Below are positions 33,004 through 56,751 of a stretch of DNA of 56,751 nucleotides, one piece after another. Made by a program: the position numbers and the translations under genes. The stretch is from a virus: IMG/VR virus record IMGVR_UViG_3300028384_000458, positions 1-56,751 of that record. One strand, 5' to 3'. Under the pieces are notes generated by a model. That model did not search any database. It was not told the origin of the DNA and saw only the letters and a program-made list of their open reading frames with translations. How positions within the stretch are numbered: position 1 is the first letter of the stretch; each line of letters opens with the position of its first letter.

Positions 33004-33339
33004 ATGAGACCATTATGCAAGTGCGGACAGCGACCTGCTGCTATAAATTATAAAAAAGGTAATAGGATTTACTATCGTAAGCTGTGTGAACGCTGTCTAA
33101 GAAACGGTGAAGGGCACGGGATTCCTAAGTGGAAACAAAAAGGTTACACAAAATTAGACACTTGCGAAAAATGCGGATTTCATAGTAAACACGATGAGCA
33201 GTTTAATGTGTTTCATATGGACGGCAATCTTGACAACTGCCGTCCTAGCAATTTAAAAACTATTTGTGCTAATTGTCAGAGAATTCTGCAAAAAGAGGGA
33301 GTGTTGTGGAAGCAGGGAGACTTAGTCCCTGATTTCTAA
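33004..33339 (+). CDS. HNH-like zinc protein of marine T4-like phages (111 aa)
   Basis: Two zinc sites can be seen: CKCG with CERCLRNG near the N-terminus, and CEKCGFHSKH with ICANCQR near the C-terminus. Between them NVFHMDGNLDNCRPSNLKTIC matches the HNH core (H...N..N) of small phage HNH nucleases. It may be a homing or packaging-associated nuclease, but in marine T4-like phages it is conserved at a fixed site, which argues for a phage function rather than an invader. Convergent overlap with the dNMP-kinase-like gene. Confidence 0.75.
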   Translation: MRPLCKCGQRPAAINYKKGNRIYYRKLCERCLRNGEGHGIPKWKQKGYTKLDTCEKCGFHSKHDEQFNVFHMDGNLDNCRPSNLKTICANCQRILQKEGVLWKQGDLVPDF

Positions 33340-40149: not shown

Positions 40150-40561
40150 AAAAAGCGGCGTAGATCAAAAAGGTTGGGGCTACGAGATGATTTGGGCAAC
40201 CAACGATAAGTATTGCGGAAAGATTATGGCATTTACTAGAGAAGGTGCTATGACAAGTATGCACTTCCATAGAGAAAAAGACGAAACTTGGTTTGTTAAT
40301 CAAGGCAAATTTAAGGTTCGTTATATTGATACATCAAATAGTATAATGTATGAAAAAGATCTTAAAGAAGGTGATGTATGGCACAATCCGCCACTACAAC
40401 CACATCAGCTAATTTGTTTGTCTAAAGAAGGCAGTATTACAGAAGTTAGTACACCTGACAGTGTAGAAGATAACTTCCGTATTGGACCCGGTGACAGCCA
40501 AGTTGCTGAACAAAATAGAGCTAGTTTAGAAGCTCAGGCTAAAGCGTCTGCAAATTCATAA
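40130..40561 (+). CDS. Cupin protein at the heptose locus (143 aa)
   Basis: WGYEMIWATNDKYCGKIM and MTSMHFHREKDETWFVNQGKFKVRY (HxHxxKxE metal site), then EGDVWHNPPLQPHQL, form a ManC-type cupin. It overlaps hldD by 20 bases and is convergent with gmhB. A sugar-phosphate isomerase/epimerase role fits; it may also fill the missing first step of the heptose path, which is speculative. The last ~25 residues are low-complexity. Confidence 0.75.
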   Translation: MEQQPTRKSGVDQKGWGYEMIWATNDKYCGKIMAFTREGAMTSMHFHREKDETWFVNQGKFKVRYIDTSNSIMYEKDLKEGDVWHNPPLQPHQLICLSKEGSITEVSTPDSVEDNFRIGPGDSQVAEQNRASLEAQAKASANS

Positions 40562-41085
40562 AGATTGTTATAAATCTTAGTTTGCTTTTTAAGTTCTTTT
40601 TGAGCAAACGTATTAAGTTTTTTCTCAGCTTCATTGCCATAGCCCGTTCTTACTAAAATAGGATGGGCTTTTGCTTTTTGTGCTGCTTTTAAATCGTTAA
40701 ACTTATCTCCAACATAAAAGCCGTTTTTAAAGTTTACACCGATTTCTTTTTCTGCACGTTCAAACATACCAGTATTAGGTTTTGCGTAAATATCATCTTT
40801 TAAGTTTGTAGTTGCATAATACAATCCGTTAATACTGCGAATGCCTGCTTGACCCATTAACTGCAACATATAATCGTGTACAATATCGACATCTGTAGGA
40901 GTCATCATACCTTTCATGATGCCTGCTTGGTTAGTTAGGATTACAATATCATATCCTTTTTCACGCATCATTTTAATTGCTTCAAAACTTCCAGGAATAG
41001 GTTCAAACTGCTCTGGCTTAGTTACATATGTACCTAAGTCTACATTAATAGTTCCGTCTCTATCTAATCCAATTACCTTTCTCAT
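40534..41085 (-). CDS. gmhB: GmhB-like heptose bisphosphate phosphatase (HAD)
   Basis: GLDRDGTINVD is HAD motif I (DxD), VILTNQAGIMKG is motif II, KPNTGMF and GFYVGDKFNDLKAAQKAK supply motifs III and IV. The sequence order and length (183) match GmhB, which removes the 7-phosphate from heptose 1,7-bisphosphate. The zinc-binding cysteine cluster found in many GmhB proteins before the KPxxGM motif is absent (YYATTNLKDDIYAKP instead). The ATG at 41085 overlaps the halogenase stop as ATGA. Confidence 0.82.
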   Translation of the reverse strand: MRKVIGLDRDGTINVDLGTYVTKPEQFEPIPGSFEAIKMMREKGYDIVILTNQAGIMKGMMTPTDVDIVHDYMLQLMGQAGIRSINGLYYATTNLKDDIYAKPNTGMFERAEKEIGVNFKNGFYVGDKFNDLKAAQKAKAHPILVRTGYGNEAEKKLNTFAQKELKKQTKIYNNLYEFADALA

Positions 41086-42563
41086 TTCCAAAAATTCCTA
41101 ATCCATTCTGTATTATTAGGGTAAGACTTTGCTTTCTCAGTCCACTCTTTTTTATTTTTAAAATATTCTTTTTCTGCATTACTATATGCATTTAAGTAAT
41201 GCAATTCTTTTAGTGCAACTTCTGGAGTTATATTACCTGTACCTGCTAAAACATAACTCCACAAACTCCAGCCTGCACAGCCTTGAAATATAGGAAACTG
41301 ATACCTCCCTGGCATTCTATACTTTGACATTTCTATAATATCTTTAACAAAATCTGTCATAGTATTACCTGTGGCAATATATTTCCAAAAATCCGAGTCG
41401 TCTCTACCACAAATGTAGTGTGCAACAAGGAAATCTCTAAATGTATCATACATAAATGCAAAACGTTCGTTATAGTCATTTATTGCTTTTTCTTGTAATG
41501 TAGCAACCTTAGTTGGTTTAATTGCTGCTGATAAACTTAGTGTTTGTAAAATTTGGCTGTGTATACTTGTTGCTTCTAATGGTTCTAAAAACGTACTGCT
41601 TAGACCAATTGCACAGCAATTCTTAATCCAAAACTTTTCTTGTCGGCCGCTTTCAAATCTAATTTGTTTCTGAGGTTCAATTTCATATCCTAGTAGTTGT
41701 TCTATTTCTTTGTGTGCATCGTCAAAAGAAATAAAGTCTTCACAGAATACATATCCACAACCGTATCTATGTTGTGTAGGGATTTGCCATAACCAACCTG
41801 CTTTTTGTGCCCAGGCAATAGTTGCAGGTTCAATAATCTCATTGTCTTTGTACTTTGTCCAAAACGGCATTGCTGCATTTACAGGCAAGTGCTTTTGATA
41901 ACTGACCCATTTTCCGCCCATCTTGTTTATAATAAGTTTTTTAAATCCTGTTGCATCTACAAAAAAGTCTCCTTTAACTTTTTTGCCGTCGACAATTAAA
42001 GCAGTTGCTTCTCCTGACATAGGATGTATTTTTACTTCATCTATGTTTCCAATTACATGTGTTACATTAAGGCCACAATGCTTTTTACAATATTGTCCAA
42101 ACTTATGTGTATTAAAGTGGTAAGCATGTAAGCCCGGGTCTATATCAAAGCTATTTGTGTTTTGATCCATATGCACACCGTGCTCAGTTGCAAGGTGTAT
42201 ATCTTCTATTTTGTTGTTTGCTACAGTATATGCAAAAACAGTATCGTTGCCATCTCGTGCAGTTTCAGTACCAAAAATAGGACCATAGTAGTGCCTGCTA
42301 ATATCTTTGTTCCAGGCTTTGTGTTTAATACCGTACTTAGGAGTTACATCACATTCTTCAATAAAAGTTTTTTCTGAAGTTCCTAAATCAATCAAACTGC
42401 CATTAATGACTGTAGCTAAAAGACCGGTACTACTTTCGCCAGTACCTACTATACCTATTTCTTTGCTTTCAACGAGAGTTATATTATGATAGAGATGAGT
42501 CTTTGACAATATTAGTGCTGTTAGCCACCCTGCTGTCCCGCCGCCTGCAATTACTATTTCCAT
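41082..42563 (-). CDS. Flavin-dependent halogenase-like protein 1 (PrnA/VirX family)
   Basis: FAD-dependent tryptophan halogenase-type enzymes use FADH2, O2 and halide. IVIAGGGTAGWLTALIL is the FAD site; a lysine in DVTPKYGIKHKAW aligns with the catalytic lysine of PrnA; GWLWQIP is the WxWxIP motif; and FLEPLEATSI holds the active-site glutamate. Marine T4-like phages are known to carry such genes, including an iodinating enzyme. Substrate is unknown. Start ATG at 42563 is chosen because TTTAAATA ends five bases before it. 493 residues. Confidence 0.85.
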   Translation of the reverse strand: MEIVIAGGGTAGWLTALILSKTHLYHNITLVESKEIGIVGTGESSTGLLATVINGSLIDLGTSEKTFIEECDVTPKYGIKHKAWNKDISRHYYGPIFGTETARDGNDTVFAYTVANNKIEDIHLATEHGVHMDQNTNSFDIDPGLHAYHFNTHKFGQYCKKHCGLNVTHVIGNIDEVKIHPMSGEATALIVDGKKVKGDFFVDATGFKKLIINKMGGKWVSYQKHLPVNAAMPFWTKYKDNEIIEPATIAWAQKAGWLWQIPTQHRYGCGYVFCEDFISFDDAHKEIEQLLGYEIEPQKQIRFESGRQEKFWIKNCCAIGLSSTFLEPLEATSIHSQILQTLSLSAAIKPTKVATLQEKAINDYNERFAFMYDTFRDFLVAHYICGRDDSDFWKYIATGNTMTDFVKDIIEMSKYRMPGRYQFPIFQGCAGWSLWSYVLAGTGNITPEVALKELHYLNAYSNAEKEYFKNKKEWTEKAKSYPNNTEWIRNFWK

Positions 42564-42568
42564 ATAGA

Positions 42569-42576
42569 TATTTAAA
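42569..42576 (-). promoter_or_regulatory. Late promoter variant (TTTAAATA), leaderless geometry
   Basis: Five bases (TCTAT) before the halogenase 1 ATG at 42563, just downstream of a terminator. Confidence 0.65.
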
Positions 42577-42586
42577 CAAGCAGTCA

Positions 42587-42615
42587 CAAAAAAAGGGCAG
42601 TTTTGAACTGCCCTT
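42587..42615 (-). terminator. Rho-independent terminator after the heme-oxygenase-like gene
   Basis: AAGGGCAGTT-CAA-AACTGCCCTT (42593-42615 on the minus strand) followed by TTTTTTG. Confidence 0.88.
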
Positions 42616-43318: not shown

Positions 43319-44197
43319 TTAAGGACGCCAACCGTCATCTGAAAATCCAGTTTGCTCTAAGTTAGCCCACTCTAACTCTTGTAAAACAATTATTTCTTTG
43401 TCTTTAATCTTGTTGTTATATTTATTAGCAAGCTCGTATGCATTATCGTGTAAAGATTCAATACCCAAAGCCGGTGCAAAAAACTTTTCTGCATACTCTA
43501 GATGTTCTAACGGCAAAGGATGTATTTCAGGTAACAAATGTGTTTTCAATGCATCTTCATTTTCCTTTGAAGGCACACATAACGGTCTTGATTTAAAAAA
43601 CTCGTCCGTTGTTTTGAAGTTAAGTGCATTAAGAATAGGTTTAACTTTTGGCATTACAATGTCGCCATATGTATCTATTATAGTACCTTGATTTTCATAT
43701 GTTAGTAGAGTTTCTTTTTCAAATGGTCTTGACTCTAAACCTTCTTTCCACTCTCTAAAGCATGTATCAACTACAGTACATCCAATATGTTCTAATGCAG
43801 TTTTTGTACTTGTAATTAATGCACAATCACGCATTACACAATGTAACTGATCAGTCCATTGCATTTCGTCTTCGTATTCAAATCCGTTGAGTATAAACTT
43901 TTCTTTTTTGTAATTTCGATCTCCAAAACCGCCTGGACAATACCAGCCATTATCTTCGTGATATCTATCTTCACGAAACATGTTGCTCCATTGAATTAGT
44001 ATAACATCGTCTTTGGTAAACTTGTGTACTGCGTTAGCTTCCCAAATACGTGTGCTGATATACATGTTGCCAGCGCCGCTTCTTCCCCAGTTCATGCCAG
44101 GCGCCTCGTGTGTATCCTCGTAGTGTGTGATTAATATATCAGCCCAAGTAGGATAAAAATATTGTGTCAAACTGCATCCAAATGCAAATACTCTCAC
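43319..44197 (-). CDS. SGNH-hydrolase-like protein, copy 2
   Basis: Paralogue of the 3758-4573 protein, sharing VFAFGCSLTQYFYPTWAD, WGRSGAGN, DDVILIQWSNMFREDRYH, MRDCALITST and IHPLPLEHLEYAEKFFAP. The cysteine-serine after FG stands at the usual SGNH nucleophile position and the HPLPLEH block at the histidine end. The start is GTG (44197), overlapping the halogenase 2 stop as GTGA. Two diverged copies at two surface-modification loci suggest related tasks. Confidence 0.6.
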   Translation of the reverse strand: MRVFAFGCSLTQYFYPTWADILITHYEDTHEAPGMNWGRSGAGNMYISTRIWEANAVHKFTKDDVILIQWSNMFREDRYHEDNGWYCPGGFGDRNYKKEKFILNGFEYEDEMQWTDQLHCVMRDCALITSTKTALEHIGCTVVDTCFREWKEGLESRPFEKETLLTYENQGTIIDTYGDIVMPKVKPILNALNFKTTDEFFKSRPLCVPSKENEDALKTHLLPEIHPLPLEHLEYAEKFFAPALGIESLHDNAYELANKYNNKIKDKEIIVLQELEWANLEQTGFSDDGWRP

Positions 44198-45651
44198 TTG
44201 TATAATTCCCTAATCATTGTAATAATTGTTTTGTGACTTAGTTTAGGAGCACTAGCAATTTCACTAGTATATTTGTTGTAGACTTCAGCTGTATAATCTT
44301 GTAACTCTTTAGGTAAACTGTTAAATTGTTTTTTAATTGCCTTTTTGTCTATTAATCCTAATGCATACATTACTATAAAATAATTCATACTGATAAACAG
44401 CACCTTGTCTGATAAATGTCCAAAATCGCTGTTAACCGGCATTCTATTTTTAAACATTTCTAAATGTTGACTTAAACTGTCTGGTAACTGTATGTCTTTA
44501 CATGATCTCCAAAATGGTGTATCGTCTCTATCAGTTAGATAGTGCAACAATATAAAATCTCTAATGTTTTCCATAATAGCATTAAAATTTTTATTGTATA
44601 TGTTAATATCTGCCTGACTATAATTATATATTCTACTTGCTAGTAGAAAACTTTGCTGAATACTAGTGCCAATACTAGTTGCCTCTAACGGTTCTACAAA
44701 TGCACTACTTAGTCCGATTGCACAGCAATTATTGATCCAAGGGCAATCTAATGCACCTGCATCAAACTCAATGTGTTTAGCAACTTTAACTTCGTGTCCT
44801 AGATATTCTTCTACTTCTGCTTGTGCTTGTTCTGGTGTGATATAATTCTTATCAAAGATATATCCATTGCCTTTTCTCCCCCACACAGGAATACGGAACA
44901 TCCAGCCTGCATCCATAGCACGAGCAAGTGTCCACATAGGATAATCTTCATTTTCTGTAGGGAATACGATAGCACTATTCATTTTTAAATGCTCCGAGTA
45001 GCTATTCCATTTAGCTCCTAATTTATCAATTAGTAATCTTCTGAATCCTGTACAGTCAATATAAAAGTCATAATTGTAAACAGTATTGCCTACAATAGTG
45101 TCAATGTTACCATTGTCGTCTAAATTAACTTCTTTAATTACGTCATCGTAAATTCTGATTCCTCTTTCTTTAGAGAGATTTGTTAGAAACTCGTTTAGCT
45201 TATGTGTATTAAAATGATACTGACTTGTTACAGAATCTTTAACACTCTCAAAGTTTTCTTCTAAAAAATATACTTCGCTACCTTGTGCCAACGGCAATGT
45301 TAAATCTATTGGTTCAACGCCCTGAGAAGCTAGATAGGAATACATAATATGATTATCTCCATACTTTGCTGTATAGTTGCCTTCGACTATATGTAGATAA
45401 TCTTTATCAGTCCAGTTTTCAAAACGTATTCCTGCTTTATACGTTGCATCACATTTTGTGACTATGTCAGTATTAGTAATACCAACAAAATCCATAAACT
45501 GACGCCAGTGCTCCGTAGAACCTTCGCCTACTCCAATAGTTCCAATTTTATCAGATTTAATAACATCGATAAAATAGTTAGGATAGGTTTGTTTTAAAAT
45601 TAACGCAGCTACAAATCCTGCTGTGCCGCCGCCAACAATTGCTATTTTCAT
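44194..45651 (-). CDS. Flavin-dependent halogenase-like protein 2
   Basis: MKIAIVGGGTAGFVAALIL is the FAD-binding motif, KCDATYKAGIRFENW carries the conserved lysine, GWMFRIP stands at the WxWxIP site (one W replaced: WMFRIP), and AFVEPLEATSI holds the glutamate. The second W replacement may alter activity. It is ~30% like copy 1 by eye and has its own perfect TATAAATA late promoter, five bases before the ATG at 45651 (an upstream ORF start at 45720 is rejected). 485 residues. Confidence 0.82.
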   Translation of the reverse strand: MKIAIVGGGTAGFVAALILKQTYPNYFIDVIKSDKIGTIGVGEGSTEHWRQFMDFVGITNTDIVTKCDATYKAGIRFENWTDKDYLHIVEGNYTAKYGDNHIMYSYLASQGVEPIDLTLPLAQGSEVYFLEENFESVKDSVTSQYHFNTHKLNEFLTNLSKERGIRIYDDVIKEVNLDDNGNIDTIVGNTVYNYDFYIDCTGFRRLLIDKLGAKWNSYSEHLKMNSAIVFPTENEDYPMWTLARAMDAGWMFRIPVWGRKGNGYIFDKNYITPEQAQAEVEEYLGHEVKVAKHIEFDAGALDCPWINNCCAIGLSSAFVEPLEATSIGTSIQQSFLLASRIYNYSQADINIYNKNFNAIMENIRDFILLHYLTDRDDTPFWRSCKDIQLPDSLSQHLEMFKNRMPVNSDFGHLSDKVLFISMNYFIVMYALGLIDKKAIKKQFNSLPKELQDYTAEVYNKYTSEIASAPKLSHKTIITMIRELYK

Positions 45652-45656
45652 GTTAA

Positions 45657-45664
45657 TATTTATA
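45657..45664 (-). promoter_or_regulatory. T4-type late promoter (TATAAATA), leaderless geometry
   Basis: Perfect consensus, five bases (TTAAC) before the halogenase 2 ATG at 45651. Confidence 0.82.
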
Positions 45665-45700
45665 GACTTGCCAGAAGTACATAGTCTTATATGGCAAGTG

Positions 45701-45708
45701 TTTAAATA
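45701..45708 (+). promoter_or_regulatory. Late promoter variant (TTTAAATA), leaderless geometry
   Basis: Five bases (GTTGT) before the ATG at 45714; divergent from the halogenase 2 promoter. Confidence 0.65.
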
Positions 45709-45713
45709 GTTGT

Positions 45714-46346
45714 ATGACAAAGATAACTTCAGTACAGCAAGAACAAGCGCCTATGCATAAGGTTAATCTTTTTGATCAGAGCATGTGTGTAATTAACTTT
45801 AATAAACACTTTGAAGTAAAAGAGCAAATGTCAAGAATTGTTAACGATATTGCACAAACTTCTATGAACGCTAACAATTATCATCATACAGATGTATATC
45901 AATCTCCTCCAGGATTGCAAATGAATAACGGATTTGACTGTTTGCTGCGTAGTCCTGAAATGCAAGAATTTGTACAACTAAAAACAAAAGAGCTTGTTAT
46001 TCCTGCTGAAAAGTATCTTGTATGCGACAACATGTGGGTAACATTTATTCCTCCAGGAGGAATGTTGCGCAGCAGAGATTATGAAGGTGTGTTTTTTGGA
46101 TCGTACTTTTTACATTCGCCTGCAGATTCTGGAATGGTTACTATAGAATCTCTTACACCGAGTTCTTATTATTTAAAGTTAGGCAACGTTCAAAACAATG
46201 AATTTAACAATAATGTTAGAGCATTTAATATGCCAGAGGCATCGATATTTTTAGTACCATCTTATTTAAGATTAGGAACTACTACAAACACATCTAACGA
46301 AGTTGCTGTACAAATTAATTTTACATTGGATATAGTTGATAGATAA
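45714..46346 (+). CDS. 2OG-Fe(II) oxygenase-fold relative without visible metal ligands (210 aa)
   Basis: The layout follows the phage 2-oxoglutarate oxygenase family: MWVTFIPPGGMLRSRDYEG, FFGSYFLHSPADSGMVTIE (family: SGVYYL..P..SG.L.F.D) and ASIFLVPSYLRLGTTTNTSNEVAVQINFTLD (family: FPSWLxHGVxPN...RISISFN; shown in parts). In the usual sites for the HxD/H and the distal histidine, R/S and L appear, so the iron triad seems lost. It may be a structural or sugar-binding derivative. Tandem coupling with the next gene by TAATG. Confidence 0.5.
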   Translation: MTKITSVQQEQAPMHKVNLFDQSMCVINFNKHFEVKEQMSRIVNDIAQTSMNANNYHHTDVYQSPPGLQMNNGFDCLLRSPEMQEFVQLKTKELVIPAEKYLVCDNMWVTFIPPGGMLRSRDYEGVFFGSYFLHSPADSGMVTIESLTPSSYYLKLGNVQNNEFNNNVRAFNMPEASIFLVPSYLRLGTTTNTSNEVAVQINFTLDIVDR

Positions 46347-47152
46347 TGCAAGCATTTATTTTTACAAATACTAATGCAAGTATTGCTTGGTTGTCAGCAA
46401 AGGCACTTGCAAATTATGCTGCAAAAGGAAATAACTTTATTGCTGTTTTTGATTACGAGTATGATATTTTAGAACAAGTACCAGAGCTATATCAAAAAGT
46501 ATATTTTTTAAATACGCCAAATATTTTTAAAAAAATAAAAGAGTGCGAATTAATAATTTTAGATTTTGATTTAGATATGTTTGCAAATAAATGTGCAACT
46601 TATCAAGAATATGTTAATTTAAAAATTAGTAAAACTTCTAATCTATTAGCTCTACGTATAGACACAAATAAACAGTTAGATAGTGTGATTGCAGGTTTTG
46701 ATAAACACCAATTTACTAACGTATTCTTATCTATTAAAGATCAAAGATATTTTAGTCTTTGTAAAGAATACTTAGACGATTTAGTTAATGTAATTACATA
46801 TGATACACAGTCGATTGTTGACTTATATTACTTAATTAGTAAATGTAATTTTGTTGTAACAGACAATCAAATAGAATACTTAATTGCGAAAGACTTAAAC
46901 ATTCCTAGTTTTGTTGTTGTAGACAACTTGAATGTAACTGTTGAAAAATCTAAAAATACTTTTATATTTGATCCTTATAAAAATGAAACACATAATTTGC
47001 CGCCAAAAGTTTTTGCTAAAGACAGAGCGTTAACTAAAAACATAAACTTTCAAATTGTAGATCAAAACAGTGTAAAAGACTTACTTAATACAGAACTTAA
47101 AGATGCATTAGACAAGTATAAGATTCCGTATGTTACTTATTTGCCCAACTAA
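46346..47152 (+). CDS. Unrecognised protein, glycosyltransferase-like C-terminus (268 aa)
   Basis: No named family is recognised. ELIILDFDLDMFANK, VDLYYLISKCNFVVTDNQIEYLIAKDLNIPSFVVVDN (shown in parts: YYLISKCNFVVTDNQ and LIAKDLNIPSF) resemble the DSxxxHLAxAxxxP region of GT-B enzymes such as GT9, though the N-terminal lobe is short. It starts in the stop of the preceding gene. Convergent with 47133-48314 (20-base overlap). Confidence 0.5.
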   Translation: MQAFIFTNTNASIAWLSAKALANYAAKGNNFIAVFDYEYDILEQVPELYQKVYFLNTPNIFKKIKECELIILDFDLDMFANKCATYQEYVNLKISKTSNLLALRIDTNKQLDSVIAGFDKHQFTNVFLSIKDQRYFSLCKEYLDDLVNVITYDTQSIVDLYYLISKCNFVVTDNQIEYLIAKDLNIPSFVVVDNLNVTVEKSKNTFIFDPYKNETHNLPPKVFAKDRALTKNINFQIVDQNSVKDLLNTELKDALDKYKIPYVTYLPN

Positions 47153-48314
47153 TTAATTTATTGATTACGTCTGCAGGCTCTGCTTTATTAAAAATATTTT
47201 TGTATGTTTTATAATTATGTTCTAGTATAGGCATCATGTCGTTATACATACGTTTCATTTCTTGAATGTTTAGACTGTTTAGTTTTTTAATCTCTTTTAA
47301 TGCTTTATTAAGCCGCTTATCGTCGTTTTCTTCTAAATCGTATGATTCATCAATGAATGCACTGAATGTTATAAACCCTTCTTTTTTAAGAAGTTCAAGT
47401 GTACCAGGTAGACCAATTACTACAAAGGGATGATAGTAGGCAAAACACTTTACTACCTTTTCAGTAAACTGTCTAATATTTTTCTTAGAGCTAAAATCGC
47501 CTTCAGTAATAATACTCCAATAGCTTTCGTCAAAATAACTTTCTAGACTAGGCATATTAGTAGCAAATGCCTTTCTCTGACTTTCTATCATATCTAAGTC
47601 TATAGGTAATGCTGTTTTTAACCTTTCAATAGAATCTTTAGTAAGAACAACTTTTGACAGATCCGGATCTTGATACCTTTCTACTTCTACATTTTGTGAT
47701 TTAAAACTTTTCCCAGACTCTAGCAACGGCGCATAATCTCCAAGTGTACAGCTAAGATATGTGTGTTTAGCAATATCTTCTTTTAACAAGAAATCTACAG
47801 TGCGTAATCTATGCACACGTTCTTGTCTATTAACACATAAAAACTTTTTTTCTCGTAAACTTTCATTTGGAGTATAGTCTAGCAAGTCAGGATAAATTTC
47901 ATCGTAGTCTGGCAAATGCAAATGTATATTAAAGTACTTAAACTTTCCTTCGGGAATACTTTCTTCTAGCATAGCATTACTACTTAGAATACAATAATCA
48001 GTAACACGTTTTTCATTGTTTAATAAATTTGTAAACATATCAATAAATTCTTGATCTAATAGACCTTCGTAGCAATCATCGATTGTGATGAAAAATTCGT
48101 TTGCCTTTGCACTAGAAAGAACTTGTGCTAATAAATTTAAAGTTGTTTGATTGTTGCCTACGTATTCAAAGAATACAAAAACCTTATCATATTCTTTATT
48201 AGCGTCATTTGACTGTAATGTGTAAGTTGGTAAAATGTCATTAAAGTCATTTTTAATAATATTACCGTACAGCCTTGATCCACTGTATACAATTAGTGTA
48301 GGTATTTTCTTCAT
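47133..48314 (-). CDS. Putative glycosyltransferase-like protein of marine phages (393 aa)
   Basis: The C-terminal segment SYWSIITEGDFSSKKNIRQFTEKVVKCFAYYHPFVVIGLPGTLELLKKEGFITF (shown in parts: SIITEGDF, RQFTEKVVKCFAYYHPFVV, GLPGTLELLKKEGF) follows the EKTxKxxxxxHPFIxxGxPGTLxxLxxxGF pattern of certain fucosyltransferase-like GTs. FLCVNRQERVHRLRTVDFL is typical of this marine family. Function is inferred only. Begins TAATG-coupled to the radical SAM gene. Confidence 0.5.
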   Translation of the reverse strand: MKKIPTLIVYSGSRLYGNIIKNDFNDILPTYTLQSNDANKEYDKVFVFFEYVGNNQTTLNLLAQVLSSAKANEFFITIDDCYEGLLDQEFIDMFTNLLNNEKRVTDYCILSSNAMLEESIPEGKFKYFNIHLHLPDYDEIYPDLLDYTPNESLREKKFLCVNRQERVHRLRTVDFLLKEDIAKHTYLSCTLGDYAPLLESGKSFKSQNVEVERYQDPDLSKVVLTKDSIERLKTALPIDLDMIESQRKAFATNMPSLESYFDESYWSIITEGDFSSKKNIRQFTEKVVKCFAYYHPFVVIGLPGTLELLKKEGFITFSAFIDESYDLEENDDKRLNKALKEIKKLNSLNIQEMKRMYNDMMPILEHNYKTYKNIFNKAEPADVINKLISWANK

Positions 48315-49186
48315 TATAATTTTTCTAACTTATGTTTAATTATTGCTTCTGGTTGCTCTTTTAATTGCGGATTAGCAGGACACATTGCACAAATACTATG
48401 GGGATGTTGAATATTATCTATAAATGTATTCAAATCATCTTCTGTACAATCTAATTCTAACCCTTTATACTTTAAATAAGGCGCCCAGTCTGTATCATTT
48501 AATTGATTACTCTTAGTTAAGTGTGTTTCAACCATACTAATAGGCGGACACTTGTATAATCTGTTCTTGTAGATAATAGGATAGATATTTGCACTGCATT
48601 TAGAATAACTAGCAGCAGGATCTTGATCGTTCCAAGGTTTTAAAACACCATTAATTTCCTGTCTGTAATCATACCAGCCACCTTTTGTAGGATCTGTTAT
48701 TTCTAGCTCAATGTCTCCGCTTTTAATTACTCCCGGAGCAGTTTGATACCAGTGATCTTGACGTTTAATATATTTTTCTATATTTCTATCTATTGCTTCT
48801 CTAACTATAGTATTACGATTATGTATAGTAACACTAATTTTTGCATTACCTACTTCACGTAATACTTTCATTAATTTAGAACGTTTAGGAAATAATAAAC
48901 CATTAGTGTATATTTCAATAGTAGCATGATCAAAATATTTTCTAGCAGACCTTATTATGTCATAGATGTAAGGATGTAATAGTGTTTCGCCGCCAATTAA
49001 TGTAAGATTGTCAGGGTCAAGATGCTTACTCCATGCTTCCATATTACGATCTATGTCTTCATAACTTTCAGTCCAGTTATGATTGTAATCAATAAAACGA
49101 TCACAACCAGGACACGCTAAATCGCATGACGTTGTAATCATCCATTCAAGATATGGTAACCAATGTCCTCTATCACCATCACGCAT
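48314..49186 (-). CDS. Radical SAM protein with extra cysteine clusters (290 aa)
   Basis: TSCDLACPGCDRF (C21, C25, C28) is the radical SAM [4Fe-4S] motif CxxxCxxC. LTLIGGETLLHP supplies the SAM-binding GGE, and IEIYTNGLLFP the following strand. The C-terminal region has further cysteines (YSKCSANIYP, YKCPP, CAMCPANPQ) that could hold a SPASM-like auxiliary cluster. Phage homologues exist in marine T4-like phages; substrate unknown. It starts at the carbamoyltransferase stop (TAAATG). Confidence 0.8.
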   Translation of the reverse strand: MRDGDRGHWLPYLEWMITTSCDLACPGCDRFIDYNHNWTESYEDIDRNMEAWSKHLDPDNLTLIGGETLLHPYIYDIIRSARKYFDHATIEIYTNGLLFPKRSKLMKVLREVGNAKISVTIHNRNTIVREAIDRNIEKYIKRQDHWYQTAPGVIKSGDIELEITDPTKGGWYDYRQEINGVLKPWNDQDPAASYSKCSANIYPIIYKNRLYKCPPISMVETHLTKSNQLNDTDWAPYLKYKGLELDCTEDDLNTFIDNIQHPHSICAMCPANPQLKEQPEAIIKHKLEKL

Positions 49187-50974
49187 TTAGTTTTTTACTG
49201 TAACCAGTTTTCCGTGTTCAGGCAAATACAAGTATTCTATGTCACTATCGTATAATGTTCTTAGTGCATCATCTAGTGTTTCTACTAATGGTTCGCCACC
49301 TAAGTTAAAACTGGTATTAAAGATAATCGGAACACCTGTTTGCTCATAAAATTCTTTGATTACAGCATAATAGTTTTCGTTTTGATGTTCTTTAACTGTT
49401 TGAATACGACATGTACCGTCTACATGAATAATACTAGGAATCTTTTCAGCAACACCTTCTCGACAATCCATTGCATACATCATATGAGGACTTTCTTCAA
49501 GTGTTTTCATATCGAACCAGTCGTTCGCATGTTCGTGTAGAATACTACCTGCAAATGGACGGAAATACTCGCGGCGCTTAATACGGTTAACCCAATCTTT
49601 ACCATCTTCAAAAGTTGGATCAAACATTAACGAACGATTACCTAGCGCACGAGGTCCTGCTTCCGATTGTCCTTGAAACATTGCTACAATGTTTTTCTTA
49701 CGCATTAGCTCTACTACATCTTTAGCTGTAGCATCACTAAGTTCACCTTCATACTTTTCTACAACTGCTTCAACATCGCCTTCAGTATATGAGACAGGCA
49801 ATCCCATGTATAAACTTTCACCGAACGTTCTAGTATCAGTATCTCTTGTTACATTATAGTGCATCATCATAGCTGCGCCCATTGCAGTACCTGCATCTGA
49901 ACTTACAGGTTCAACATATAAATTAATGCCATGTTCTTTTAGTGTGTCAAGATACCAATAGTTAGCAACACAATTTAATCCATATCCACCGCTTAATACT
50001 ACGTTTTTATTTCCTGTACGCTCCACTGCATCTAAGATTAAATTAAGCACTTCTTGCTGACTTTCTTGCTGCACAGCATATGCCATATCGCGTCTGCTAT
50101 CTAATGTAGTTAGATCTTTGTCAAATTGATCTTCTGTGGTATTAAGTGCAGCAAATCGTGTTTCTGCTACAAGAGCGCCATTTGGAAACGTAGGAATAAT
50201 TAAGTTACGATTGGAAGTCTTCCAAGTATTTCCGCCAGCATCGTCGTAAATATTAGGAATGCCATCGTTAGGTTTACCGTAAGGAGCAAGACCCATAGTC
50301 TTTCCTGCTTCGATTGGTGCCCAGCCGCAGTATTGCGTTACTGCTTCGTATGCCTTGACAATACCGCCTGTATCGTCAATAACTAACTCATGTGTTCCTT
50401 CTTCGCCTTCTCTATCGCTAGGTACAACCATTTTTGCACCTAAGTGAGGACCTCTACTTCCTTGATGTTTATAAATTGTTTTAAATTCTGCAGGATACTC
50501 ACAAGTAAAGAAACTTTCTAATTCCCATGTCATTACTTGCTCTTCTCCCATATTCATAGGAATAAACGATCCTGCACCGTCAACAATTACTGCTACTGCA
50601 TCTTCAAATCCTGATCGATAGAAAGCACATGCAGCGTGTAACTTGTGATGCACATAACTTAAATCAATTACTTGTGGATGCTCACGTCCTTTGTTGCGTT
50701 CAATCAGTCCTAGCTTACGAGCTAGTCCAGTATACATATCGTCGCCACTAAAGTCAATCTTACCTGCTTCATCTAATGGCTGTGTATGTGCAATAACTAG
50801 ATAATCTAACTTATCGGTATAATCAAGAATCTTAATCATTGCAGCTAACGGGCCGCCGTCATATTTTTGTCTACTAAGACGCTCTTCTTCAATAGAAAAT
50901 ACAACTTCTCCGTCTTTAAGTAAGCAGACGCCTCCATTGTGTCCTCTAGTAACACCTGCAATCCATAAACTCAT
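49187..50974 (-). CDS. NodU/CmcH-family carbamoyltransferase (595 aa)
   Basis: The family transfers carbamoyl groups to sugar or antibiotic hydroxyls. GVTRGHNGGVCLLKDGEVVFSIEEERLSRQKY opens the Kae1-like half (shown in parts: GHNGGVCLLKDGEV and SIEEERLSRQKY), VIVDGAGSF and TMGLAPYGKP follow, LSGGYGLNCVAN is a nucleotide-site segment, and FQGQSEAGPRALGNRSLMFDP is the YrdC-like/C-terminal signature. Full-length (~580-600). GGAGAATAAT at the end of the GT9 gene is the ribosome site. Confidence 0.92.
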   Translation of the reverse strand: MSLWIAGVTRGHNGGVCLLKDGEVVFSIEEERLSRQKYDGGPLAAMIKILDYTDKLDYLVIAHTQPLDEAGKIDFSGDDMYTGLARKLGLIERNKGREHPQVIDLSYVHHKLHAACAFYRSGFEDAVAVIVDGAGSFIPMNMGEEQVMTWELESFFTCEYPAEFKTIYKHQGSRGPHLGAKMVVPSDREGEEGTHELVIDDTGGIVKAYEAVTQYCGWAPIEAGKTMGLAPYGKPNDGIPNIYDDAGGNTWKTSNRNLIIPTFPNGALVAETRFAALNTTEDQFDKDLTTLDSRRDMAYAVQQESQQEVLNLILDAVERTGNKNVVLSGGYGLNCVANYWYLDTLKEHGINLYVEPVSSDAGTAMGAAMMMHYNVTRDTDTRTFGESLYMGLPVSYTEGDVEAVVEKYEGELSDATAKDVVELMRKKNIVAMFQGQSEAGPRALGNRSLMFDPTFEDGKDWVNRIKRREYFRPFAGSILHEHANDWFDMKTLEESPHMMYAMDCREGVAEKIPSIIHVDGTCRIQTVKEHQNENYYAVIKEFYEQTGVPIIFNTSFNLGGEPLVETLDDALRTLYDSDIEYLYLPEHGKLVTVKN

Positions 50975-50975
50975 A

Positions 50976-52055
50976 TTATTCTCCTGTGCGTCCTAAAATC
51001 TGTGTTGGCTGTGTTTGTTGTGGAACAAACGTTGCTTGCGGAACTTGCTGCGGTTGATGTGAGCAAGTGTTTTGTTCTTGTTGCTGCGGGACAAACGTTC
51101 CGGTAAATTTAGTACTCTTTCCTAAGCGTTTTTTAGCACTTTCAATTACTGCTTTAACTTGCTTTTCGTCCATTTCCATACATTCGTCGTTAAATCTATC
51201 TTGTTCTTCTTCACCAGTTAATCTAATAGGAGAATACTTACGACGGTCTTTTCCTACATCTACAATATCAAAACTCTTATCATCTGGATAAGATATATTA
51301 ATTGGGAACGTGCTTCCTATTACTGCTGTTACGCTAGTACCAACAGCCTTTGCAATATGTTGGCCTACACTATCACAACCAATAAAATGATCTGCAATAT
51401 GTATAATACCTGCCCATAATCGAAGCTCGGGTATTTGTGGCATAGCAACTGGCGGATTGCTAGGTTTTCCTGAATCATCTAACGCAATTGGAAATTCACT
51501 CATTAATACTACAGCATAATCTTTTTTAAGCTCATTAATAATTTCAATAGTATTGTTTAGTGTAAGACTACGAGATGTTCCGTCAATTACAAAGTCTGGA
51601 CGGTTTTCTGCGGTTCTACCAAACGGTTGTATAACTACAACCTTATCATGCTTTGTTGCTGCTTTAATTTCTTGAATAACATTGTGTGCTTCAACAATTT
51701 CATGTTTGTTAAAATGCACACTAGGATCTCCTACATCTCGAAGACCTTTGTTATTGATAGCAATATCAAATGCTTGCGCTAAACTACACTTTTGATTGTA
51801 GTATTCCCACACTCTGTATGGTTCTGGACTTACGCAATTTCGATCTTTAATTTTTTCTTCAAAGAGCCCTTTATGCCATACATCAAATGCTTTATTGTGC
51901 AACAAAGGATGACCTTTATAAAGGTCCATACCTCCTTCGCACACTATGATAAAGTTGTCATTTGGATTTTCTTCTGCAAACTTTTCAAATGCAGGGATTG
52001 AACACAATACTCTACCTGCTCCGCCATTAATAAAAAATGCTGTTGATCTTGTCAA
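50976..52055 (-). CDS. GT9-like (heptosyltransferase-type) glycosyltransferase with Pro/Gln tail (359 aa)
   Basis: INGGAGRVLCSIPAFEKFAEENPN parallels the GDVLxxxPxxxxLxxxxP start of ADP-heptose:LPS heptosyltransferases, and IHIADHFIGCDSVGQHIAKAVGTSVTAVIGSTFP parallels their DSGxxHLAxAxxxPxxxxFGxT donor site (shown in parts: IGCDSVGQHIAKAVG and TAVIGSTFP). The tail has two TFVPQQ repeats in a Gln-rich stretch. The start is TTG (52055), backed by GGAG seven bases upstream. Phage ADP-heptose genes supply a plausible donor. Confidence 0.7.
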   Translation of the reverse strand: MTRSTAFFINGGAGRVLCSIPAFEKFAEENPNDNFIIVCEGGMDLYKGHPLLHNKAFDVWHKGLFEEKIKDRNCVSPEPYRVWEYYNQKCSLAQAFDIAINNKGLRDVGDPSVHFNKHEIVEAHNVIQEIKAATKHDKVVVIQPFGRTAENRPDFVIDGTSRSLTLNNTIEIINELKKDYAVVLMSEFPIALDDSGKPSNPPVAMPQIPELRLWAGIIHIADHFIGCDSVGQHIAKAVGTSVTAVIGSTFPINISYPDDKSFDIVDVGKDRRKYSPIRLTGEEEQDRFNDECMEMDEKQVKAVIESAKKRLGKSTKFTGTFVPQQQEQNTCSHQPQQVPQATFVPQQTQPTQILGRTGE

Positions 52056-52171: not shown

Positions 52172-52924
52172 TTAATCGTTTGCTACAGCAGGAGCATCGT
52201 CATCGTCGTCGAATATAGTAATATCTGCAAGTAGGTCTGTTGGGCTTACAGCAGTAGCTTGATCAGGTTCTTCTGGCAGGCACATTCCTGCAAAGAATGG
52301 CGGAATATGTGCTAGTGCTGTAGGAGCTTCGCGTAGAAGTCGTCTGTATTCTTCCCATTCGTCTTTAAGTTCTTGCGGCATACCTTCATCTGTAACACCG
52401 TCTGCCGCTTGTAACAGCTGATCACGTAATGCTCTAAAGTGTGTCCATGTAACATCGTTAACACGGATTTTGTCCATGCTTTCCCATGTACGAACCGGAA
52501 GAATAAACTCTTCGGTGTCAAAATCAAACTTTACATTAAATTCATCGTAGATGTCTCTTGGATGAAATTCTGCTGGGTGTTCTACTTGTCCGTATCCTTC
52601 ACCGCCGTCGTACTTAACTACCCATTCACGTGCTGCATAAAAGTCTCTATCTTCGTCTTTACCTTGGTCGTTAACAATTTCACACACTAGTGGATTTGTT
52701 TTACAATCAATTGTCATTCGCATACAATCTTCTGCAACTGGGCGTTCATGTTCTTCTGGTGTATATAAGCACCATCCTAGTTCTTGACCTGTTTCTTTAT
52801 TAATTTCAATAGTAAGGTACTCAGGACCTTCATATACATAAGTTCCTGTATTACCATCTGAGAAATCATCTGTATACCATTCATTTGGTATCTTATATGT
52901 AAATTCTTTCCTAATATTAGGCAT
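52172..52924 (-). CDS. Putative tail-fibre assembly or virion protein (250 aa)
   Basis: Acidic, aromatic protein with the helical block ELKDEWEEYRRLLREAPTALAHIPPFF, resembling the YRxxLR region of phage tail-fibre assembly/chaperone proteins (shown in parts: EWEEYRRLLREAP). The ending DITIFDDDDDAPAVAND is strongly acidic. It lies directly downstream of the fibre genes with its own late promoter and leader (GGAG). Chaperone function is inference. Confidence 0.55.
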   Translation of the reverse strand: MPNIRKEFTYKIPNEWYTDDFSDGNTGTYVYEGPEYLTIEINKETGQELGWCLYTPEEHERPVAEDCMRMTIDCKTNPLVCEIVNDQGKDEDRDFYAAREWVVKYDGGEGYGQVEHPAEFHPRDIYDEFNVKFDFDTEEFILPVRTWESMDKIRVNDVTWTHFRALRDQLLQAADGVTDEGMPQELKDEWEEYRRLLREAPTALAHIPPFFAGMCLPEEPDQATAVSPTDLLADITIFDDDDDAPAVAND

Positions 52925-52942: not shown

Positions 52943-52950
52943 TATTTATC
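52943..52950 (-). promoter_or_regulatory. T4-type late promoter (GATAAATA)
   Basis: 18-base leader with GGAG to the ATG at 52924. The TAA stop of cysteine-rich protein A is the TAA inside GATAAATA. Confidence 0.7.
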
Positions 52951-53791
52951 CAAAGGTAATTTTTACCATTCCAGAACCGCCTTGTCCTACGCCTCCGGCA
53001 CAGCACATTTGAGCGTCAGTACCGTAACATGCACTAATGCCTGCTGTGCCTCCGCCTGCTGGCCAGTTTACGTAGCAACCACAAATACATGTAGCATCGT
53101 ATGTACCAGCAGCAAACATTTTTCCAATAAACGGTGCTTGTCCTGTAAATGCTGACTTGTGAATGCAGTGATGATAACCACGACCAAAGTATCCACCGGA
53201 AGATCCCATCATACCAAAGTCTGCACCGTAAATTCCACATATGCCACAGTTAGCACATTGCGCACTCCATAGTGTATTACCCCATGCATCACCGTTACAC
53301 ATATGTCCGCCGCAACCGCCGTTAACACAGAAGTTAGATAAATTATGACCAGTTACATATGATTTACATCCCATACCTGCTGTACAAGTATGTGCTTTGT
53401 TACAACGCCACGCACCGCCTGCACATACACGGTATTGACAGCCAGGACTAGTTGTAATTGTCTTAACAGCATAGTTTCCGCCCATGCCGCCGTTGGCGTG
53501 TGAACAACAACCACAACAAGTGTTTCCTGGGCCGCCGCCTCCGCCTGACCAAATTTCAAAGGTTACTCTAGTAGCATTTGTAGGAACTGTCCACAAGCAA
53601 CACTTGCCGTTTGCTTGTTCACAACATCCACCGGCGTTGGAACACATATGGCATTTCATTCCTCTTTCGTTAAAAATCCATTTAACACCGTAACACTTAC
53701 CTGCGCCTAATGCTAGTTCTGCATCGTCAAAAAAGTTATTTGGTATTTGATCTGATCTAAGTTTTTTATAACTATCGTAATTAGCTGCCAT
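52946..53791 (-). CDS. Cysteine/glycine-rich fibre-type protein A (281 aa, 29 Cys)
   Basis: The middle WTVPTNATRVTFEIWSGGGGG and NYAVKTITTSPGCQYRVCAGGAW follow the glycine-rich phage tail-fibre tip pattern (vpxGvtsvxvxxWGGGGGG... pGxxyxvxvGxGG). About 10% of residues are Cys, many as CC, CxC or CxxC pairs. No signal peptide or zinc-finger spacing is regular. It ends with GGSGMVKITFG. It is the last of three paralogues, in tandem behind a fibre gene. Adhesin with disulfides or bound metal is inferred. Ribosome site AGGAAAG. Confidence 0.65.
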   Translation of the reverse strand: MAANYDSYKKLRSDQIPNNFFDDAELALGAGKCYGVKWIFNERGMKCHMCSNAGGCCEQANGKCCLWTVPTNATRVTFEIWSGGGGGPGNTCCGCCSHANGGMGGNYAVKTITTSPGCQYRVCAGGAWRCNKAHTCTAGMGCKSYVTGHNLSNFCVNGGCGGHMCNGDAWGNTLWSAQCANCGICGIYGADFGMMGSSGGYFGRGYHHCIHKSAFTGQAPFIGKMFAAGTYDATCICGCYVNWPAGGGTAGISACYGTDAQMCCAGGVGQGGSGMVKITFG

Positions 53792-53804
53792 TTAATCTTT
53801 CCTA

Positions 53805-54644
53805 TTATGCAAATGTTACTTTTACTATTCCTGAGCCGCCGCCAGTGCCGCCTGCACAGCATTTGTGAGCGTTACCACAATAAGTACTCATACCAGAGTT
53901 TCCTCCGCCTGATGGCCAGTTTGTATAACATGCACACGAACACCAGTTTTCTGTAAGATGCATACTATGGAACTTAGCAATAAACGGAGCTGCGCCTGCT
54001 TGGGAATAGTCCGATCCTTGACACTTACAGCCTGAGTGAGCCAACTTATATCCAGTTGATCCAGTTGCACCAAAGTCTGCTCCATAGATTCCGCATATGT
54101 TACAATTAGCACATGTTTGCATACCAGTAGGACCGTTGTCGTCACCATTACACATGTATCCACCGCAACCACCAACAGTACAGAAGTTAGATAAATTATA
54201 TCCTGTAATATACGACTTACAGCCCATGCCGCCTGTACACGTATGTGATTTAGTACAGCGCCAAGCGCCGCCTGCACAGATTGTATAAGTACACCCAGGT
54301 CTAGTTGTAATTGTTTTAGTGGCGTAGTTTCCTCCTGCGCCGCCAAACGAATAAGAACAACAGTTTGAACATGTCATTCCGGCGCCGCCGCCACCACCAC
54401 TCCATATTTCAAATTGTACTTGCGTTACATAACTAGGTACTGTCCAGTTACAACATCTACCGCAATAGACACAGCAACAACCACCAGCATATGAACACTC
54501 TTGACATTTAAGTCCTCTTTCTTGGAATACATAAAAAGAACAATACTTGTTACCAACGCCGTGCTGTAACTGATTTCCGTTAATACTATTATCAGTGAGT
54601 TGGTTACTTGTTATCTTTTTGTACGCTCCGTAATTTGCCGCCAT
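53805..54644 (-). CDS. Cysteine/glycine-rich fibre-type protein B (279 aa, 31 Cys)
   Basis: Paralogue of A and C: MAANYGAYKK start, WTVPSYVTQVQFEIWSGGGGG, TRPGCTYTICAGGAW, HTCTGGMGCKSYITG, ANCNICGIYGADFG and GGSGIVKVTFA ending. Conserved cysteine positions are mostly the same in all three, so the cysteines are selected. Variable stretches lie at ~190-245. GAGGAATTATTTAG serves as ribosome site; the genes are separated by 13 bases. Confidence 0.65.
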   Translation of the reverse strand: MAANYGAYKKITSNQLTDNSINGNQLQHGVGNKYCSFYVFQERGLKCQECSYAGGCCCVYCGRCCNWTVPSYVTQVQFEIWSGGGGGAGMTCSNCCSYSFGGAGGNYATKTITTRPGCTYTICAGGAWRCTKSHTCTGGMGCKSYITGYNLSNFCTVGGCGGYMCNGDDNGPTGMQTCANCNICGIYGADFGATGSTGYKLAHSGCKCQGSDYSQAGAAPFIAKFHSMHLTENWCSCACYTNWPSGGGNSGMSTYCGNAHKCCAGGTGGGSGIVKVTFA

Positions 54645-54657
54645 CTAAATAATTCCT

Positions 54658-55497
54658 CTATGCATACGTAATTCTTACAACGCCTGATCCGCCTTGGCCG
54701 CCGCCTTTTGCACAGCACATTGCCGGGTCGCCACAGTAGTTAGAATCACCTGAGCTTGCTCCGCCAGCTGGCCAGTTTACGTAACAACCACAAACACACC
54801 AAAATTCAGAACCTGATGCTACGTGTGTTTTACCAATCAACGGTGCTTGTCCTGTAAAGTTATTACGTCCGTGACAACGACAAGTTGATGTACCTGTTAA
54901 GTTACCAACTGTACCCATCATACCAAAATCTGCACCGTAAACACCACAAATGTTACAGTTTGCACAAATCATCTGGTTACGCTGTCCCCATTCGTCGCCT
55001 TCGACACAAGCTAATGCGCCACAGCCGCCTACAACACAGAAGTTTGATAAGTTACAGCCAGTTACATATGACTTACAGCCCATACTTGCTGAACAAGTAT
55101 GCGATCCCGAGCATCTCCAGGATCCGCCAGCACATACTGTATATGTCCATCCTGGACAAGTCTCGATTGTTTGTATAGCGTATCCGCCACCGGCGCCTCC
55201 CATAGCACGATAGTAACAGTCACAACAGGTGTTACCTGCACCGCCGCCACCACCGCTCCATATTTCAAAAGTTACTGTTGAAACTCTACTAGGAACAGTC
55301 CATTGACAGCATCTGCCACATGCTTGACATACACATCCGCCTGCATTAGCACAGTGATGACATGCCATAGCTCTTGCACTTGCTATCCACTGGACACCTC
55401 GGTTCATTACTGCGCCGTCTTGTAATTTAGCGTCTGTTACAACTCCGTTGGGTACTTGATCTTTTATTAGTTTTTTGTAACTTGAGTATGTTGCCAT
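54658..55497 (-). CDS. Cysteine/glycine-rich fibre-type protein C (279 aa, 30 Cys)
   Basis: First of the triplet after the fibre gene. WTVPSRVSTVTFEIWSGGGGG, WTYTVCAGGSW, HTCSASMGCKSYVTG, ANCNICGVYGADFG and GGSGVVRITYA are shared with A and B. Thirty cysteines in 279 residues. It has AGAGGATATTG as ribosome site 18 bases after the fibre stop. Tandem duplication followed by divergence is likely; the paralogues may bind different receptors or form a mixed trimer. Confidence 0.65.
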   Translation of the reverse strand: MATYSSYKKLIKDQVPNGVVTDAKLQDGAVMNRGVQWIASARAMACHHCANAGGCVCQACGRCCQWTVPSRVSTVTFEIWSGGGGGAGNTCCDCYYRAMGGAGGGYAIQTIETCPGWTYTVCAGGSWRCSGSHTCSASMGCKSYVTGCNLSNFCVVGGCGALACVEGDEWGQRNQMICANCNICGVYGADFGMMGTVGNLTGTSTCRCHGRNNFTGQAPLIGKTHVASGSEFWCVCGCYVNWPAGGASSGDSNYCGDPAMCCAKGGGQGGSGVVRITYA

Positions 55498-55515: not shown

Positions 55516-56751
55516 TTAGATTGAGAAGATTCTCCATCCATATGTTGAACTATGATAAACAAGTTCAAAAGCTGCACCTTCTGTGTTAACTGTCATGTTG
55601 CCGGTATCACCTTGAATACGTCCGCCATTTGGATTAACTGTTAATGCATTTGAATCGAATGTTTTTCTTAAGTCAAAGAATCTAATAGTGTCGCCTTTAA
55701 TTAACCCACTATTTGGCAATGTAATAGTTCTGCCGCCGCCATTAGTATCGACAAAGTAACATCTCCATACCGCAGCGGTAATATTTGAACTTACGTCACT
55801 ATATAAAAAGCCTGGACCTAGTGAACGCCAAGTTGTACCATCACTAAATTCAACACAGTCAAAACTAGTATTATAACGAATATAACCATCTGCACCTGTT
55901 GGACGTTGTGCATCAGTACCACGTGCAATACGTGTTGCACCTGTTGAGTTATGGTTAAATCCGTTGTCAACTTGTAAGCTACCTTTAACTACTGTGCTAT
56001 CACTTGTAGCATTACCTAGTGTTTGATTACCATTAACTGTTAGTGTTCCGCTAACACTTGCATTACTTGTTACAGTTAAACCTGTAAATCGACCAGTACT
56101 TGCAGTAGTAGCACCGATTGACATGTTGTTAATCGAGCCGCCGCCTGCTGGGTTAAGTGTAACTGTTGTTACAGTTAAACCTGTAAATCGACCAGTACTT
56201 GCAGTAGTAGCACCGATTGACATGTTGTTAATCGAGCCGCCGCCTGCTGGGTTAAGTGTAACTGTGCCTGAACCTGTTGGGCTAATTGTTACGTTTGCAC
56301 CCGGACTTAGTGTTACTGTATTGTTAGCATCTAATGTAGTAAACTGTCCAGAGCTGCGAGATACGTTACCAATTGCACCCTGGAAGCCGCCGCCGGAGTA
56401 AACACGTTTAGCAATACTTGCGCCGCCTTTACAACGTAGTGTACCTGTGTCACCTGTTGCGTTAGTTGCTTCAGTAGTAGCAGTAAAGTCAACTGTTGAG
56501 TTAGCACCTAGTGTACTGAACAAACCTGAAGATCTTGTTGTGCTACCGATTGGAGTATTTTGAATACTACCTGCATGGATTGCTCCACTGACACCCATAC
56601 CACCTGTTACAACTAGTGTACCAGATGTAGTGTTAGTTGATGCTGTGTTTTTAGTAAATGTTACTGAGTCATTTGCAGTTAGTGTTGTAAATGCTGCTGT
56701 AGAAGCTGTGCCGCCACCGATAGCAGTGCCTTCCATAGTGTCTGCATAAAT
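55516..56751 (-). CDS. Tail-fibre-type protein, C-terminal part (cut by right edge)
   Basis: The frame is open to the window end (an ATG at 56736 is internal-looking, preceded in frame by IYADT). About 410 residues are visible, built of beta-type repeats such as GTAIGGGTAS, NTPIGSTTRSSGLF, QGAIGNVSRSSGQF and NNMSIGATTASTGRF, typical of phage fibre or collar proteins made of G-x-T/S units. Two perfect 99-bp repeats lie inside. The C-terminus YGWRIFSI with FELVYHSSTYGW resembles a fibre tip. It heads the fibre operon. Confidence 0.7.
   Translation of the reverse strand: MYADTMEGTAIGGGTASTAAFTTLTANDSVTFTKNTASTNTTSGTLVVTGGMGVSGAIHAGSIQNTPIGSTTRSSGLFSTLGANSTVDFTATTEATNATGDTGTLRCKGGASIAKRVYSGGGFQGAIGNVSRSSGQFTTLDANNTVTLSPGANVTISPTGSGTVTLNPAGGGSINNMSIGATTASTGRFTGLTVTTVTLNPAGGGSINNMSIGATTASTGRFTGLTVTSNASVSGTLTVNGNQTLGNATSDSTVVKGSLQVDNGFNHNSTGATRIARGTDAQRPTGADGYIRYNTSFDCVEFSDGTTWRSLGPGFLYSDVSSNITAAVWRCYFVDTNGGGRTITLPNSGLIKGDTIRFFDLRKTFDSNALTVNPNGGRIQGDTGNMTVNTEGAAFELVYHSSTYGWRIFSI
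56067..56264 (-). repeat. Perfect tandem duplication, 2 x 99 bp, inside the fibre gene
   Basis: 56067-56165 and 56166-56264 are identical by eye, giving a 33-residue unit twice in frame (key residues NPAGGGSINN and STGRFTGLTV). A recent duplication, or an assembly artefact at a repeat. Confidence 0.85.

Follow-up and report, generated by a model that had tools for sequence, protein, structure and literature searches.

The window analysed here is a virus record of 56,751 bases that carries T4-type tail genes. Its span 52946-55497 is filled by three tandem open reading frames (ORFs) on the minus strand, located immediately after an open-ended fibre gene of which the C-terminal part is present (55516-56751, minus strand, with the 5′ end beyond the window). 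Inside the fibre gene, a unit of about 30 residues occurs as a near-exact duplication (56083-56262, minus strand; TVTLNPAGGGSINNMSIGATTASTGRFTGL). The three ORFs encode paralogues of 279 amino acids with 30 cysteines (copy 1, 54658-55497), 279 amino acids with 31 cysteines (copy 2, 53805-54644) and 281 amino acids with 29 cysteines (copy 3, 52946-53791). All of them match phrog_4205, a family of unknown function (E 2e-32, 2e-33 and 9e-36, respectively), and copies 1 and 2 only exceed the cut-off of Gly_rich_2 (PF21722; 28.4 and 26.7 bits). Their pairwise identity is 53-60%, they share cysteine at 23 alignment columns and cysteine makes up 10-11% of their residues, the mean of the remaining 59 ORFs of the window being 1.35%. 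The sole other cysteine-high ORF of the window (33004-33339, plus strand) encodes a 111-amino acid protein with 8% cysteine and CxC/CxxC motifs that resembles HNH/zinc-finger endonucleases. Third codon positions vary most among the paralogues and dN/dS is about 0.28; hence, the ORFs are real genes, and the pattern of substitutions indicates that they are under purifying selection. The description given by the sequence-only reading, three tandem paralogues of some 30 cysteines behind a fibre gene, is thus borne out in ORFs, coordinates and cysteine counts. As discussed below, the three genes very probably encode tail-fibre tips, and are called tips here.

The tip genes form part of a constant cassette, in which the fibre gene and the tips are joined by a chaperone gene and by genes for a GT9/TibC-like glycosyltransferase (GT) and a NodU-type carbamoyltransferase. 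The gene at 52172-52924 (minus strand) probably encodes the assembly chaperone of the tips; it matches phrog_9740 and a tail-fibre-assembly phrog, scores just under the cut-off of Phage_tail_APC (24.9 against 26.6 bits) and, in related loci, adjoins the tip genes wherever the contig extends far enough. The GT gene (50976-52055, minus strand; phrog_8954) would provide the tip-modifying enzyme, and the NodU/Nol-type O-carbamoyltransferase (49187-50974, minus strand; phrog_1601, E 9e-168), which contains both domains of these enzymes (Carbam_trans_C, PF16861, E 2e-58; PF02543, E 1e-26), probably a second tailoring step. A radical SAM gene (48314-49186, minus strand) adjoins the carbamoyltransferase. 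Thioether crosslinks made by such an enzyme were rejected as an explanation, since the gene was undetected (phmmer, E 1e-5) in sequence flanking either the 77 loci fetched first or the cyanophage loci. On the plus strand, the window contains an HldE-like heptose-7-P kinase/heptose-1-P adenylyltransferase with PfkB and CTP_transf_like domains (38195-39334; NF008454, E 5e-85) and an HldD-like ADP-glyceromanno-heptose 6-epimerase (39331-40149; TIGR02197, E 4e-73), both scoring below the equivalog cut-offs (285.8 against 521 and 246.5 against 274.6 bits). A second match to the GT profile, weak and partial, lies at 46346-47152 (plus strand; E 2.5e-5). The tail sheath protein (29527-32886, minus strand; phrog_10581, E 4e-228) is very long, 1119 amino acids, its profile having only 915 positions.

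Distribution of the tips and linkage to the glycosyltransferase

Related loci were collected with four profiles. The same tip genes, with about 26-32 cysteines per full-length copy, are present in 77 related viral loci, in most of them downstream of a fibre or small fibre-like gene, which excludes chance. The isolated cyanophages S-SSM7, Sf-FS3, S-CAM1 and S-CAM3 have three copies, and P-SSM2 and the marine virus AG-345-F15 have two copies that flank the chaperone gene. Among loci flanked on both sides by more than 900 bases, three copies occur in 152, two in 46 and one in a single locus. The two-copy loci form a sister lineage, and in the one-copy locus the second cysteine-rich gene is of a different type, its homologue being the one in AG-345-P14. 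Therefore, the earlier emphasis on three copies holds for the commonest arrangement and fails as a rule, and an obligate three-chain heterotrimer tip was discarded on the same counts. In the tree of the tips, the copies keep their positional order within lineages while whole triplets of deep lineages group by phage, which implies a history of homogenisation or of repeated duplication. The near-fixed copy number and the positional order kept within lineages make receptor switching, previously suggested for the three copies, unlikely.

The linkage of tips and GT, overlooked by the sequence-only reading, is practically universal. Of the tip-fetched loci, 241 extend for at least 2.6 kb past the tips, and the GT lies there in 240; the record of the remaining one carries two GT copies at another place, so that the GT accompanies the tips in all 241. 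Conversely, of 80 GT-fetched loci, 67 have cysteine-rich neighbours, and in the remaining 13 the contig extends no further than 1.81 kb upstream of the GT, so that the fraction in informative loci is 67/67. Where 3 kb of sequence follows the GT (134 loci), the carbamoyltransferase is always present, and every named cyanophage matching the tips also matches the GT. In the record of locus L280 (G001), two GT copies lie side by side (39150-41538), one of them with an internal stop codon in the match, and a third cysteine-rich gene is present.

The GT also occurs in other records of the phage collection, which come from viruses of marine single cells, from Vibrio phages and from a single Aeromonas phage; in the representatives examined it again lies beside genes for cysteine-rich proteins. 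Those of AG-345-O18 (758 amino acids with 73 cysteines and 290 with 31), AG-345-P14 (282 with 26) and the tail proteins of the Vibrio phages SBP1 (925 with 41) and D505 (1756 with 41, many of them within Ala-rich repeats) have no detectable similarity to the tips, and that of Aeromonas phage HJ05 (559 with 23) has a weak Gly_rich_2 match only. The C-terminal end of the 758-amino acid protein (locus L300, 5024-7297) matches a 106-amino acid MASG-type small fibre protein, as if a cysteine-rich domain had been inserted. Among 1732 non-tip ORFs of at least 200 amino acids, two have 20 or more cysteines at 2% or more, both in GT-bearing cassettes. Homologues of the SBP1 and D505 tail proteins in VBP47, PG11, 11E33.1, D79, 1.037.O, 9g and valsw3, which lack the GT by profile search (some records being partial), have 0-10 cysteines. 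They retain cysteine at 2 of the 111 aligned SBP1/D505 positions; the replacing residues are mixed, and these positions are not significantly more hydrophilic in the homologues than others (p 0.23, 0.37), which counts against the cysteine modification proposed below. Overall, the GT profile matches 11 of 11 records with cysteine-rich proteins and 0 of 8 with cysteine-poor homologues, Syn9 included (Fisher p 1e-5, the records not being independent), and the content of Ser plus Thr is no higher where the GT is present. Searches for cysteine-poor homologues of the O18, P14 and HJ05 proteins returned the query records alone. Relatives of the Vibrio-type GT were not confirmed in bacterial genomes, and the viral contigs gave SBP1 alone.

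Fold of the tips and class of the glycosyltransferase

An AlphaFold model of the tip, made with 70 homologues in the alignment, is of moderate confidence (pLDDT 74, pTM 0.73). Its best Foldseek match among solved structures is the fibre of cyanophage Pam3 (E 7e-8, whole-chain TM about 0.5), followed by the Bxb1 tail tip (E 5e-5); the S-CAM3 and P-SSM2 homologues match too, and the glycine-rich ALK/LTK domains appear with weak E-values. A search of PDB sequences with the tip profile gave no matches. According to these matches, the tips share the Pam3-fibre/Gly_rich_2 fold, and the glycine-rich core is indeed that of a fibre tip, as the sequence-only reading had it. In Pam3, the glycine-rich domain of gp24 is the proposed distal, receptor-binding end, the neighbouring gene for chaperone gp25 is needed and the fibre is a homotrimer accompanied by a trimeric chaperone (PDB 7ypx; PMC9608196). 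The tips resemble gp24 in the domain and in the adjoining chaperone gene; however, Pam3 has one fibre protein, the main text of that paper does not mention cysteine and no linkage to a GT is reported. Syn9 gp38 likewise has the Pfam domain (PF21722, E 2e-10), the fold match and a position after fibre genes, but contains 0.8% cysteine, and the GT is absent from that genome. No literature on cysteine-rich cyanophage fibres was found.

The GT was modelled with higher confidence (pLDDT 90.7), and the model has the GT-B fold of family GT9. The top 30 Foldseek matches are all GT9-type enzymes, among them 3tov (E 5e-9), TibC (1e-8), WaaC (5e-7) and WaaF. By sequence, PF01075 recovers 35 of the 55 members of the family at E<0.1, the best of them at 2e-7; the window GT stays at 14.4 bits, the cut-off being 22, and relatives in loci L302 and L304 exceed it. 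The base Asp of GT9 enzymes (D13 in WaaC) is described as common to every heptosyltransferase (PMC5713226). In the GT family it is replaced by Arg in 52 of 52 members, a reading based on motif register (G-D..P vs G-R..P), as the profile alignment spanned the C-terminal lobe only; the equivalents of the donor-side residues D261 and H266 are invariant. The replacement would fit a thiol acceptor, because a thiol would need less help from a base. TibC is a hyper-heptosyltransferase of adhesins that acts on Ser (PMC4358343), and by analogy the GT would work in the same way: both have a GT9-type fold, both would be dedicated to the hyperglycosylation of adhesins and ADP-heptose is the likely donor. 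They differ in that TibC modifies Ser and carries a four-Cys iron finger (PMC4358343), while the acceptors of the GT would be phage tips, probably at cysteines. The finger is not kept in the GT family alignment, where only Cys227 is near-invariant, and this places the GT outside the TibC family.

Role of the cysteines and proposed modification of the tips

We propose that the three genes encode receptor-binding fibre tips with a glycine-rich fold, assembled with the adjoining chaperone-like protein, and that the GT of the cassette modifies them inside the infected cell. The acceptors would most likely be cysteine thiols, so that each tip would be S-glycosylated many times over. ADP-heptose, supplied by the HldE-like and HldD-like enzymes, is the probable donor, and the sugar would probably be decorated by the carbamoyltransferase. 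The steps differ in strength: fold, cassette, linkage and class of enzyme are shown by the data, while the tip as substrate, cysteine as acceptor, heptose as sugar and the sugar as carrier of the carbamoyl group are deduced. That the GT modifies the tips is probable. Cysteine as the acceptor would explain the association between cysteines and GT most simply; we hold this to be nearly an even question, and the proposal as a whole is about as likely. The universal tip-GT linkage suggests that the cysteines are points of sugar attachment rather than disulfide or metal sites. Heptose as the sugar is suggested by the class of the GT and by the two heptose genes of the window; against it stand the scores of both genes below their equivalog cut-offs, and three Vibrio/Aeromonas GT loci that were inspected, in which no annotated heptose gene lies nearby. 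The broader claim, that marine myophages and phages of Vibrio and Aeromonas use a GT9-fold enzyme of their own to S-glycosylate dozens of cysteines per tail-tip protein, and do so on tail proteins of several unrelated kinds, is put forward tentatively, somewhat below even chances.

The main rival explanation, to which we give a clearly lesser but substantial weight, is that the GT glycosylates Ser/Thr of the tips, as TibC does, while the cysteines form disulfides after lysis and stiffen the tip. The precedent of Ser heptosylation by TibC (PMC4358343) and the likeness of the folds speak for it, as does the conservation of cysteine positions in homologues, which the sequence-only reading had set as its own trial: about 15 columns are cysteine in more than 95% of 280 non-redundant homologues, as expected of structural cysteines, and tests of parity or joint loss cannot judge these columns. 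Columns 206 and 255 are moreover lost together (p 1e-6), the sole strong pair among 406 tested. On the other hand, the number of cysteines per tip shows no bias to even values (139 even vs 136 odd in 275 representatives); the columns that change most in the tree of 280 tips (117, 261, 34, 46 and 164) have no strong co-changing partner and are lost singly; many D505 cysteines fall within Ala-rich repeats; and in the Vibrio phages it is the cysteine content, not that of Ser/Thr, that tracks the GT. Metal-stabilised tips, with cysteines binding zinc, iron or iron-sulfur clusters, are very improbable. The high density of cysteine and its exchange for His at columns 174, 206, 236 and 261 leave room for some metal binding, but CxxC spacing is more frequent than in local shuffles for the three tips of the window (z 3.0) and not clearly so for other sets, CC and CCC runs occur, the count ranges from 21 to 51 per representative, and the linked GT would be left unexplained. 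Disulfides or metal as the main role of the cysteines, the two options offered at the outset, are thus disfavoured by parity, by columns changing singly and by the lack of a general CxxC excess.

A different possibility is that the target of the GT, the carbamoyltransferase and the heptose enzymes is the lipopolysaccharide (LPS) of the host, modified for example to block superinfection, and that linkage to the tips reflects a shared concern with host recognition. GT9 enzymes are typically LPS heptosyltransferases and such phage genes were earlier read as LPS-related (PMC3037559, PMC7029224). This would explain neither the cysteine-richness of several unrelated neighbours nor the low cysteine content of homologues without GT, and we consider it improbable. 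Compatible with any of these readings, including thiol glycosylation, is the formation of one hetero-oligomeric tip by the two or three paralogues. A copy number of almost always three or two, the order of the copies, the grouping of whole triplets and the single chaperone gene for all copies would agree with it, and the homotrimeric Pam3 fibre with its trimeric chaperone (PMC9608196) is a related precedent; however, two-copy lineages exist and the data are also compatible with separate homotrimers carried by different fibres, so that we regard it as a possibility worth retaining, though not the likelier arrangement.

In glycocins such as sublancin, a dedicated transferase attaches the sugar to a cysteine thiol of a peptide. 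We know of no counterpart of such S-glycosylation in virions, and glycocins differ from the candidate described here in being a single short secreted peptide modified by other GT families, while the tip would be a virion protein of about 30 cysteines. If correct, the proposed modification would account for the odd composition of a virion protein with 10% cysteine, would add cysteine-linked glycosylation to the known modifications of virion proteins and would give a role to genes of sugar metabolism in large marine phages, for which labels such as LPS genes, or even stuffer DNA, have been offered tentatively (PMC3037559). Like bacteria with TibC, phages would then coat adhesins of their own with sugar, through an enzyme-substrate pair that is directly testable. 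Should the cysteines turn out to form disulfides, the constant grouping of tip, chaperone, GT and carbamoyltransferase would still point strongly to phage tips that are modified after translation.

Two tryptophan halogenase genes (41082-42587 and 44194-45720, minus strand), with a heme-oxygenase-like gene between them, are also present in the window. The halogenase was rejected as a linked enzyme, its homologues occurring in 83 phage records, far more than those bearing tips. In Syn9, gp38 precedes a pair of tryptophan halogenase genes, with 2OG oxygenases some genes further on; the position of the halogenase genes after two glycine-rich tip genes suggests tip halogenation as a possible parallel.
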